Source: Slackia sp. | Lineage (GTDB): Bacteria > Actinomycetota > Coriobacteriia > Anaerosomatales > Anaerosomataceae | Direction of reading: 5' to 3' | DNA: 64,000 nt | NCBI GenBank assembly: GCA_020725885.1 | Contig: DYEA01000017.1 | Location: 62,001 to 126,000 of the forward strand | Part shown: positions 5,300 through 22,796 of the stretch, one piece after another | How positions within the stretch are numbered: position 1 is the first letter of the stretch | Layout of the letters: every line of letters begins with the position of its first letter | Notes under the pieces: model-generated | Told to the model about the DNA's origin: nothing | Databases searched by the model: none | Seen by the model: only the letters and a program-made list of their open reading frames with translations | Made by a program: the position numbers and the translations under genes

Positions 5300-6578
5300 A
5301 CTGCTGCGCTCCCACCAGTCTTTCGGCCTGTTTCACTGGCAGTTCGCCGGAGATTAGTTTCGGCAACAATCCGTCGCGAATGGAGCAAGCAATTTCAGAC
5401 TCGCGCTGCAGAAGCAAAATCCGGTTCAACAATCCTCCGGCGTGATTCTCGAACGATTGCGCAATGTGCTGAGTCGGTACGACGACGCCGATACTCATCA
5501 CTGACTTTGGCTGCGCGCGCTGATGACTCTTCGAAGTTCCCGTCACGAGCGACTGCATCGTCTCCCTAAAGGCTGACTGCACCAGCAGCAAGTACAGCCA
5601 TGCACGCCCGCAGGGCTTGATGGGCTTCAGGACCATGAACTCGGTAGAACAGATTGCCGGGGATCCAGGGCTGACATCGGGCACCCAGACCCGTTCGATT
5701 TCGGGATTAAGTTTCGACAGAAGTACGCTCCCTGGTTCGACGCCGAACTTGCTGCTCTTGATTGCCTTCCCAAGTTCACTTACGGGTTGTCTACCTGCGT
5801 CGTAGGCCGGGATGCTGTAGTGCAGGAACACCGTGTCTGGCTCAGTCTGTGGGTGTATCTGCGTGCGAACCTGTGTACAGACTTGGCTCAAAGGCGCAAC
5901 TCCCCACCCCTCGGGAATCGGGCCGAGCTCGGAGTCGACGAGGCGGTCGGGGAAGAGGTCGTAGAGGTGCGCGGGCAGGCCGGGGAGCGACTCGCCGCGG
6001 CGCCAGCGGCCGTCCATCTTCGCGCGCACGGGCTCGAAGTCGACGAACCACGCCTTGAACAGCGCCCGCGCCATCTCCTCGAGCGTGCGCGCCATACGGC
6101 GGTTGAGCTCGATCTTGTCGTCGAGCGTGCCGAGGACGTGGGCGATGGCGCGCCTGTCAGATGCGTGCTGCGGGTATGGAACCGTGATTCGATTCAAGTT
6201 GGACTGAGAGAGCTTCGCTTGAACAGACCCACTCATATACGGTCGCACGCGAATTGTCTGAAGCGCGTAGTAGAGATACCGCGTCTCTTCGTCATTAGCA
6301 CCGCGAAGCACGTGTGCGTGATTGTTGACCCAGAACCGACCATTCACCAGCTGCACAAACGGCATGCCGTCCGGTCGTTCGACTGAACCGTCCTCAGCTA
6401 CTAGTAAGTGCAGGCCCTCAAAGAGGTAGTCATCGACGTAGTCGATGACGCCGGTAGCGCCGTAGTAGGGATAAGGCCCATAGCGCCGCTTTCTTTCTCT
6501 CGAAGAAAGCGGAATACGTCTAGAATCTAAGTTCTCGACCAGCTCGCCGAGAGGTTTTGTGGCCCACTCACTGGCCAT
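5289..6578 (-). CDS. hsdS: Type I restriction enzyme, specificity subunit
   Basis: HsdS carries two target-recognition domains that choose the DNA site for both methylation and cleavage. The 429-residue product shows the usual layout: a first recognition domain (LGELVENLD...YGATGVIDYVDDY), a first conserved helix (IAHVLGTLDDKIELNRRMARTLEEMARAL), a second recognition domain beginning near GWGVAPLSQV, and a closing helix. I chose the ATG at 6578 because GAGGAG lies about 8 nt upstream; an in-frame TTG at 6593 is less likely. The region is visibly AT-richer than its neighbours, as is common for exchanged specificity subunits. The gene follows fic and overlaps the DUF3644-like gene. Confidence 0.95.
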   Translation of the reverse strand: MASEWATKPLGELVENLDSRRIPLSSRERKRRYGPYPYYGATGVIDYVDDYLFEGLHLLVAEDGSVERPDGMPFVQLVNGRFWVNNHAHVLRGANDEETRYLYYALQTIRVRPYMSGSVQAKLSQSNLNRITVPYPQHASDRRAIAHVLGTLDDKIELNRRMARTLEEMARALFKAWFVDFEPVRAKMDGRWRRGESLPGLPAHLYDLFPDRLVDSELGPIPEGWGVAPLSQVCTQVRTQIHPQTEPDTVFLHYSIPAYDAGRQPVSELGKAIKSSKFGVEPGSVLLSKLNPEIERVWVPDVSPGSPAICSTEFMVLKPIKPCGRAWLYLLLVQSAFRETMQSLVTGTSKSHQRAQPKSVMSIGVVVPTQHIAQSFENHAGGLLNRILLLQRESEIACSIRDGLLPKLISGELPVKQAERLVGAQQYEA

Positions 6579-21510: not shown

Positions 21511-21873
21511 ATGGCAAGCTCGCGATGGTCGCTCCGCAACATCTACCTGTACCTGGTCTGCCTCATCACGCTCATCATGGTCATCGTTGGCGCCGTCGGC
21601 GTGATCCGCAGCGGCGTCGAGCTGCTCTACCCCGAGCCGACGGCCACGATGGAACCGCTGCCGAAGGACGACAGCGGCAAGCCCGTCATGGACGAAGAGC
21701 AGTGGAAGCAGCAGCAGGCGGTCGCTAAGGAGTCCTCGCGACGCTGGGCGATTCTCAACCTCGTCGGCAACGTCGCGCTGGTCATCATCGCCGGCCCCAT
21801 CTACGTCTACCACTGGCGCAAGATCGAAGAAGAGAAGTCCGAGCCTGCCGAGACGGCCGCTACGACAGCCTAG
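21511..21873 (+). CDS. Two-helix membrane protein of the redox operon
   Basis: A 120-residue protein with two membrane segments (about 12-34, YLVCLITLIMVIVGAVGVI, and 81-101) separated by an acidic, Gln-rich loop (DEEQWKQQQAVAKES). I do not recognise a named family. A GAGAGGAGAG ribosome site precedes the ATG. A TATCAT -10-like hexamer (21456-21461) could start transcription. Its stop lies 9 nt before the glutaredoxin gene, and the three genes here form one likely transcript, so it may anchor or link the two redox proteins to the membrane. Confidence 0.75.
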   Translation: MASSRWSLRNIYLYLVCLITLIMVIVGAVGVIRSGVELLYPEPTATMEPLPKDDSGKPVMDEEQWKQQQAVAKESSRRWAILNLVGNVALVIIAGPIYVYHWRKIEEEKSEPAETAATTA

Positions 21874-21882
21874 GAGGCATCG

Positions 21883-22134
21883 ATGCACAAGGTGTTCGTG
21901 TACGCGCTTTCGACCTGTCCGTACTGCCGTGCAGCACGCAAGTACCTGGAAGAGAACGACGTCGAGCACGACGTCGTCGAGGTCGACAAGCTCGAGGGCG
22001 ACGAGTACAAGGCCACGGTCGAGGAGGTGCGCCGCATCTCCGGGGGAACGGCCTTCCCCGTCATCGTCATCGACGACGACAGCGTGATCGTCGGCTTCAA
22101 CAAGAAGCGCATCAAGGAGGAGCTCGGGCTGTGA
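21883..22134 (+). CDS. Glutaredoxin-like protein (CPYC)
   Basis: An 83-residue thioredoxin-fold protein with the active site CPYC (TCPYCRAARKYL) and the cis-proline block GGTAFPVIVIDD. These are the two hallmarks of glutaredoxins. It ends in a GTGA overlap with the ferredoxin-thioredoxin reductase-Rieske fusion gene, so it is the most likely reduction partner of that protein. Ferredoxin-dependent reduction of glutaredoxin, not glutathione, is the inferred route. Confidence 0.93.
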   Translation: MHKVFVYALSTCPYCRAARKYLEENDVEHDVVEVDKLEGDEYKATVEEVRRISGGTAFPVIVIDDDSVIVGFNKKRIKEELGL

Positions 22135-22796
22135 GCGACGCGAAGGTGCGCCGCCGGTTCCACCCCGGCACGACCGTAGAGGACCTGAAGGCGTACATGG
22201 GGCCGTTTGCCGACCGGCTCGGCTACAAGTTCAACACGGACGCCGAGTTCGTCGACGACGTGCTTGCCGCCGAGCTCGAGATCCTGGAGCAGACGGGCGA
22301 CGTGTTCTGTCCGTGCCGCGTGCGCACCGGCGACCCGAAGGAAGACGTCAAGATCATCTGCCCGTGCATCCCGTTCCACCGCGACGAGTTCGCGGCGGTC
22401 AAGAAGTGCTGGTGCGGGTTGTTCATCCTCAAAGACGTCGAGGACGGCAGCGAGCTGTTCGGCGTCATCGAAGAGCCCTCCGGCGAGGTCGAGGTGCCGG
22501 TGTTCCGGGTCGAGGACCTGCCGCCGGGCCAGATCCGGCACGTGAAGGTGGGCAAGCACGACGTCGCCGTCGCGCGCGTGGGCGACGAGTTCTTCGCGCT
22601 GTCGAACATCTGCCGGCATGCGTTCGCGCCGCTCGCCGACGGCTTCATGGACGGCTACTTCGCGATCTGCCCGTGGCACGGCTGGCGGTACGACGTGCGC
22701 GACGGCACCACCGATCACCCGGACGCCGACGTCCGCACCTTTCCGGTGAGCGTCCGCGACGGCCACGTGTTCGTGACGGTGCGCGTCGGCAGGTGA
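22131..22796 (+). CDS. Ferredoxin-thioredoxin reductase catalytic domain fused to Rieske domain
   Basis: The first 115 residues match the catalytic chain of ferredoxin:thioredoxin reductase. All six key cysteines are present as CPC (60-62), CPC (77-79) and CWC (93-95), which hold a 4Fe-4S cluster next to a redox-active disulfide. Residues about 120-221 are a Rieske-type ferredoxin domain with CRH (161-163) and CPWH (180-183), ligands of a 2Fe-2S cluster. The Rieske domain could pass electrons to the catalytic cluster in the same chain. The start is a GTG overlapping the glutaredoxin stop. Free-standing FTR catalytic chains are about 110 residues, so the fusion doubles the length. No variable chain is seen. 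Confidence 0.93.
   Translation: MSDAKVRRRFHPGTTVEDLKAYMGPFADRLGYKFNTDAEFVDDVLAAELEILEQTGDVFCPCRVRTGDPKEDVKIICPCIPFHRDEFAAVKKCWCGLFILKDVEDGSELFGVIEEPSGEVEVPVFRVEDLPPGQIRHVKVGKHDVAVARVGDEFFALSNICRHAFAPLADGFMDGYFAICPWHGWRYDVRDGTTDHPDADVRTFPVSVRDGHVFVTVRVGR

Follow-up and report, generated by a model that had tools for sequence, protein, structure and literature searches.

Enzymes of the ferredoxin-thioredoxin reductase (FTR) type are disulphide reductases of a distinct class, whose active site holds a 4Fe-4S cluster, and the entry of electrons into them depends on the lineage, being either direct from ferredoxin or through a rubredoxin relay. The window, by which we mean the whole stretch of 64,000 nucleotides analysed here, holds a gene for a single chain in which an FTR catalytic domain is followed by a Rieske domain. 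The locus raises the question of what a Rieske centre does in such an enzyme, and what the enzyme reduces.

The fusion protein and its motifs

Both Pfam domains are matched above their cut-offs (Table 1) and the metal-binding motifs are exactly present, so that the claim of the first-pass annotation, one chain with all six FTR cysteines and a complete Rieske pair, holds. The FTR motifs read C60-P-C62, C77-P-C79 and C93-W-C95, and these six cysteines in CPC-CPC-CxC order inside a FeThRed_B domain place the protein in the FTR superfamily (PF02943). The Rieske motifs read C161-R-H163 and C180-P-W-H183, i.e. CxH...CxxH ligand pairs within a Rieske fold, with the ligands invariant. By homology with FTR and ferredoxin:disulphide reductase (FDR) enzymes, C60, C77, C79 and C93 are predicted to be the ligands of the 4Fe-4S cluster, and C62 and C95 to form the redox-active pair; we infer the types of both clusters from homology as well.

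The GTG start of the fusion gene is supported by the sequence GTGA at 22131-22134, in which the start codon overlaps the TGA stop codon of a glutaredoxin gene by 4 nt, and by the AAGGAGG element ahead of it. No promoter or terminator consensus was found at the locus. A DUF5671-like membrane protein encoded further upstream is not part of the core of the system, as only some relatives have it next to the pair. Genes farther away seem to have no connection with the fusion; they encode a metallo-beta-lactamase (MBL)-fold hydrolase on the opposite strand and, downstream, a branched-chain amino-acid ABC cassette.

Table 1. Features of the fusion locus and Rieske genes of the unfused operons. Nucleotide positions are those of the window unless a locus is named; residues (aa) are those of the fusion protein.
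Feature	Position	Strand	Evidence and remarks
Small membrane protein, DUF5671-like	21511..21873	+	9 nt ahead of glutaredoxin; accompanies the pair in only part of the order
Glutaredoxin, 83 aa, CPYC active site	21883..22134	+	Pfam Glutaredoxin, E 9.6e-15; ribosome-binding site AGGAGG at 21873-21878
Shine-Dalgarno-like AAGGAGG of the fusion gene	22115..22121	+	Sequence; within the glutaredoxin gene
FTR-Rieske fusion protein, 221 aa	22131..22796	+	Open reading frame, GTG start
FTR/FDR catalytic domain	aa 17-106, 22179..22448	+	Pfam FeThRed_B (E 2.2e-19, 69.9 bits; cut-off 22), alignment and tree with 4tpu, 7pwe and 1dj7, modest fold match to 7pwe and 4tpu
Short linker	aa 107-121, 22449..22493	+	L109, G111 and V112 conserved in alignments
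Rieske [2Fe-2S] domain	aa 122-199, 22494..22727	+	Pfam Rieske PF00355 (E 2.6e-18, 66.1 bits; cut-off 20.3), model match
Rieske genes of unfused operon L112	910-1233, 1817-2152
Rieske genes of unfused operon L140	frame 43-1224 (C-terminal part), 1820-2215

Conservation and distribution of the fusion

The window belongs to a genome of 1.83 Mb. Its named relatives all fall in Coriobacteriia, among them Coriobacteriaceae bacterium EMTCatB1, at 88% identity, and a MAG of the Anaerosomatales; the order comprises oxygen-shunning bacteria of soil and subsurface. The full fusion was found in 50 of 61 genomes of this order and, cut by the contig end, in one more, and several of the genomes without it are incomplete assemblies. 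An assembly or frameshift artefact is ruled out by these relatives together with the single-contig genome G002. In 48 distinct proteins the ten residues C60, C62, C77, C79, C93, C95, C161, H163, C180 and H183 are invariant, the exception being locus L069, which has a TGA codon at C62; the tryptophan of the CWC motif (W94) is invariant, too. The internal stops that had been flagged in several relatives proved, L069 excepted, to be terminal ones, and in 20 additional loci in-frame stops occur only at the C-terminus. At the level of sequence, this confirms a real FTR-Rieske fusion with both metal sites intact and conserved far beyond chance.

Outside the order, only G313 carries the fusion among 398 genomes of the class; it is a member of another family, and its protein shares 36% identity over residues 9-217. 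The fusion was not found in 396 genomes of the phylum other than the window's genus, no match spanning 80% of the query was obtained among 72,556 plasmid records, and viral contigs yielded no fusion. FTR profiles were used to sample two other phyla; further ones, e.g. Chloroflexota and Firmicutes, lay outside the search.

The FTR domain and its closest known relatives

Among proteins of known structure, 4tpu and 7pwe come ahead of plant FTR as relatives of the FTR domain. The AlphaFold2 model of the fusion has a mean pLDDT of 83 and a pTM of 0.74, with pLDDT dropping to about 50 around the 4Fe-4S site. Among 28 chains, the modelled residues 1-115 matched only 7pwe (Z 7.1, 96 residues, 4.1 Å) and 4tpu (Z 6.0), and these matches are modest: Z stays below 8, and the loop of the cluster has a low pLDDT.

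The 4tpu structure, deposited as rubredoxin, is the FDR of Methanosarcina acetivorans and consists of an FTR catalytic domain and a C-terminal rubredoxin. The fusion shares with it a six-cysteine FTR domain followed by a second iron centre, glutaredoxin-like partners and the lack of a variable chain, and differs in having Rieske in place of rubredoxin, a tryptophan in the third motif where FDR has tyrosine (CWC, not CYC), a longer loop between the second and third motifs, and a separate, supported clade. In 7pwe, from Desulfotalea psychrophila, a glutaredoxin is joined to the FTR catalytic domain, whereas here the two are encoded by overlapping genes; 7pwe also lacks a Rieske domain and has a CYC-type active site. 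With the plant and cyanobacterial FTR (1dj7, 2pu9) the fusion has in common the FeThRed_B domain with its 4Fe-4S ligands and active-site cysteine pair. Unlike plant FTR, it has no variable subunit, carries tryptophan instead of histidine in the third motif (CWC for CHC), spaces the second and third motifs by 13 residues rather than 8, has an added Rieske domain, and is paired with a glutaredoxin gene, not a thioredoxin gene.

The first-pass annotation had assumed that FTR chains normally pair with a variable chain. This is true of oxygenic phototrophs only (PMC9025218) and not of the present system: the variable subunit (PF02941) was found in 0 of 12 genomes, with a positive Synechococcus control. 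NADPH-thioredoxin reductase-like proteins were present in all 11 genomes tested, above the family cut-off in 10, and the fusion with its glutaredoxin would thus be a second, parallel thiol system.

The glutaredoxin partner

In every one of the 47 loci with sequence ahead of the fusion, the gene immediately preceding it encodes a glutaredoxin, mostly with the 4-nt overlap; the distant fusion in G313 (L103) is likewise directly preceded by one. The nearest solved structures of the window's glutaredoxin are 3nzn, 3ic4 and 5cax, followed by the glutaredoxin half of 7pwe. We take 5cax to be methanoredoxin, which Prakash et al. reportedly described in 2018 as being reduced by FDR. Judged by homology, the co-encoded glutaredoxin is probably the electron acceptor of the fusion; the earlier suggestion that this neighbour is the substrate is plausible in view of its constant position.

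Unfused operons and exchangeable iron domains

The same parts also occur as separate genes. In G685 (locus L112), which belongs to another class of the phylum, four genes overlap or abut: first one for a Rieske protein, then those for a glutaredoxin (CPWC) and an unfused FTR, and finally another Rieske gene. The same four genes recur in this order in G791 (L140), which came from searching the phylum around a genome that bears the label Deltaproteobacteria. The arrangement is known from these two genomes, both distant. Their FTRs are 66% identical, which suggests that the glutaredoxin-FTR-Rieske operon has been transferred as a module between lineages. In both loci, two different Rieske proteins bracket the glutaredoxin-FTR pair.

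When 37 FTR domains were placed in a tree, the fused proteins grouped with the FTRs of L112 and L140 in one clade (support 96/91), enclosed in a larger CWC clade (98/96) that also contains rubredoxin-FTR proteins. The CYC-type FTRs sampled have no adjoining Rieske gene and mostly follow a glutaredoxin gene; in a phylum relative (L119), a glutaredoxin gene is followed by FTR-rubredoxin, which is the layout of FDR. The second iron domain beside the FTR domain appears to be exchangeable, being an N-terminal rubredoxin, a C-terminal rubredoxin or a Rieske domain.

The fused Rieske domains cluster together in their own tree (100/99) with neither operon Rieske as sister, and this tree lends no support to a descent of the fused domain from the operon genes. 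The enzyme may have acquired its Rieske part on two separate occasions, or the sequences may have diverged fast.

Several further architectures were seen. CWC-type FTRs with an N-terminal rubredoxin-like domain occur in the class of G685 (L116:1480-1935 and L117:1480-1935, minus strand), and a single-chain glutaredoxin-FTR fusion resembling 7pwe turned up when the phylum around G756 was searched (L147:1471-2457, minus strand). Several genomes of the window's own order encode a second FTR-like protein of CHC type with a different C-terminal extension (L105:3692-4327, L106:3710-4333, L107:3829-4257 and L108:3899-4858, minus strand).

The type of Rieske centre

The modelled Rieske domain closely resembles the ferredoxins of naphthalene, toluene and carbazole dioxygenases (Z 14-15, with 95-100 residues aligned to about 2 Å; for 2qpz, Z 15.0, 97 residues, 1.9 Å). 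With these proteins (CarAc 1vck, naphthalene 2qpz, toluene 3dqy) it shares the fold, the soluble nature and the CxH...CxxH motifs; it differs from them in being a domain of a disulphide reductase, in anaerobes, and a BphA4-type Rieske-ferredoxin reductase was not found in 12 genomes. High-potential Rieske proteins of the bc1/b6f type have a disulphide between the two ligand loops, formed by a second cysteine in each, and hydrogen bonds from a serine (that of CPCHGS) and a tyrosine. The loops of the fusion, CRHAFA and CPWHGWRYD, are without extra cysteines, and the position of the bc1-type serine is tryptophan in 47 of 48 proteins, while the tyrosine is retained in 46. With the additional cysteines and the serine missing, a low to intermediate potential is expected. 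The high-potential centre supposed by the first-pass annotation is not supported by these features, nor by the biology of the cultivated Anaerosomatales, which are obligate anaerobes with pyruvate:ferredoxin oxidoreductase and no complex III (PMC9686372).

A possible selenocysteine

In L069 (JAJZPX010000046.1), an in-frame TGA at positions 6169-6171 of the locus stands exactly at the codon of the catalytic Cys62. It is the sole natural replacement seen among the FTR ligands and active cysteines, and it hits the predicted active pair C62/C95. The contig has a coverage of 1.6x and the genome (G029) is 86% complete; SelB was found in it at a contig edge, and SelA was not found. For a SECIS element, a downstream hairpin did not rise above background and Rfam gave no match around the TGA. 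Read from the sequence of this single genome, the codon is a possible selenocysteine. The marine FTR selenoproteins of the FtrB double-selenoprotein family (NF041072; PMC2398784) carry selenocysteine at the redox-active FTR cysteines; unlike FtrB, L069 shows one position in one genome, and the text of PMC2398784 does not mention Rieske.

Proposed mechanism and its alternatives

We consider it reasonably probable that the fusion is a bacterial FDR from a clade of its own, of the Trp type (CWC), that it carries a soluble Rieske-ferredoxin domain where the Methanosarcina enzyme has rubredoxin, and that it reduces glutaredoxin. Solved precedents combine the same parts (7pwe as Grx-FDR, 4tpu as FTR-rubredoxin), as does the L119 layout, and the reading is further backed by the order-wide fusion, its recurrence in G313, the constant coupling to glutaredoxin and the common clade with the L112 and L140 FTRs. 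Against it counts the tryptophan in the CxC motif, where FTR has histidine and FDR tyrosine.

In the proposed cycle, the C-terminal Rieske centre would be reduced by a one-electron donor of low potential, probably a ferredoxin that has its electrons from pyruvate:ferredoxin oxidoreductase, and would pass single electrons to the predicted [4Fe-4S] cluster (C60, C77, C79, C93) and the adjoining C62-C95 disulphide. C62 would then attack the CPYC disulphide of the co-translated glutaredoxin, and the latter would carry dithiol reducing power to targets in the cell, alongside the NADPH-thioredoxin reductase system. The entry through Rieske, the direction of flow and the donor are what we infer from the architecture. 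The proposal of the first-pass annotation, that a built-in 2Fe-2S domain relays electrons, is compatible with the analogy to the FDR rubredoxin domain and with the operon that pairs FTRs of the same clade with Rieske proteins; according to Prakash et al. in 2018, that rubredoxin was reportedly proposed as a relay between ferredoxin and the 4Fe-4S centre. The Rieske domain may hold the same intermediate place, or it may stand in for ferredoxin altogether. Also counting against the FDR reading are that the fused and the operon Rieske domains are not mutually closest, that no BphA4-type reductase was found in the genomes searched, and that the operon is known from two genomes. Typical dioxygenase-type Rieske ferredoxins have potentials of about -150 mV and are less reducing than FTR disulphides or glutaredoxins, so that the step from Rieske to disulphide may be uphill unless the potential of this centre is lower. 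Whether the centre is reducing enough decides among its possible roles as donor, outlet or sensor.

A regulatory role is one of these. Rieske clusters can respond to redox state and pH, and the centre might sense redox state, oxygen or pH and gate the FTR domain, onto which ferredoxin would dock directly. We think this unlikely: the stand-alone Rieske proteins of the L112 and L140 operons resemble ordinary soluble ferredoxins, and the FDR rubredoxin, in the equivalent place, is said to have been proposed as a relay. In favour of gating, plant ferredoxin docks straight onto the catalytic subunit, which makes a relay unnecessary (PMC9025218).

Electrons could also leave through the Rieske centre. 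The FTR domain would then be a dithiol oxidase that takes electrons from reduced glutaredoxin and sends them via the 4Fe-4S cluster to Rieske and on to an acceptor, the system thereby oxidising thiols or disposing of reductant. The potentials of Rieske ferredoxins mostly lie above those of disulphide couples, which makes flow towards Rieske downhill, and the Rieske ligands are invariant in the homologues. Such a role nevertheless seems distinctly improbable: glutaredoxin is the sole constant partner, with no co-conserved gene for an acceptor, the cultivated members are obligate anaerobes (PMC9686372), and the characterised FTR and FDR enzymes act as reductases (PMC7278568; PMC6262447).

That the main substrate is another thiol protein or a low-molecular disulphide, with glutaredoxin merely co-regulated, deserves very little credence, for although Methanosarcina FDR reduces the thioredoxin-like protein MaTrx5 (PMC6262447) and the genomes tested also have NADPH-thioredoxin reductase, the glutaredoxin coupling extends over 47 of 47 loci, the distant fusion and both unfused operons, and natural Grx-FDR fusions exist (7pwe; L147).

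Significance

No description of an FTR-Rieske fusion was found in the literature searched, outside of which lay key FDR papers. The fusion is a member of the FTR/FDR superfamily built from known modules; Rieske in the place of rubredoxin would be new. A broader picture, which we offer tentatively and regard as rather doubtful in its entirety, would be a third electron-entry design based on Rieske, found in a Trp-type glutaredoxin-FTR-Rieske clade that spans two or more phylum-level groups; its Rieske centre would have an unusually low potential and drive the 4Fe-4S/disulphide site, and one lineage would have a selenocysteine nucleophile. The system is compact, with two genes, and allows direct tests of the relay's potential, of the direction in which electrons flow and of what the residue inside the CxC motif does, be it His, Tyr or Trp. 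If true, the Rieske relay would add a third route of electron entry into FTR-type enzymes, and a Rieske centre would then take part in the thiol metabolism of obligate anaerobes lacking complex III.
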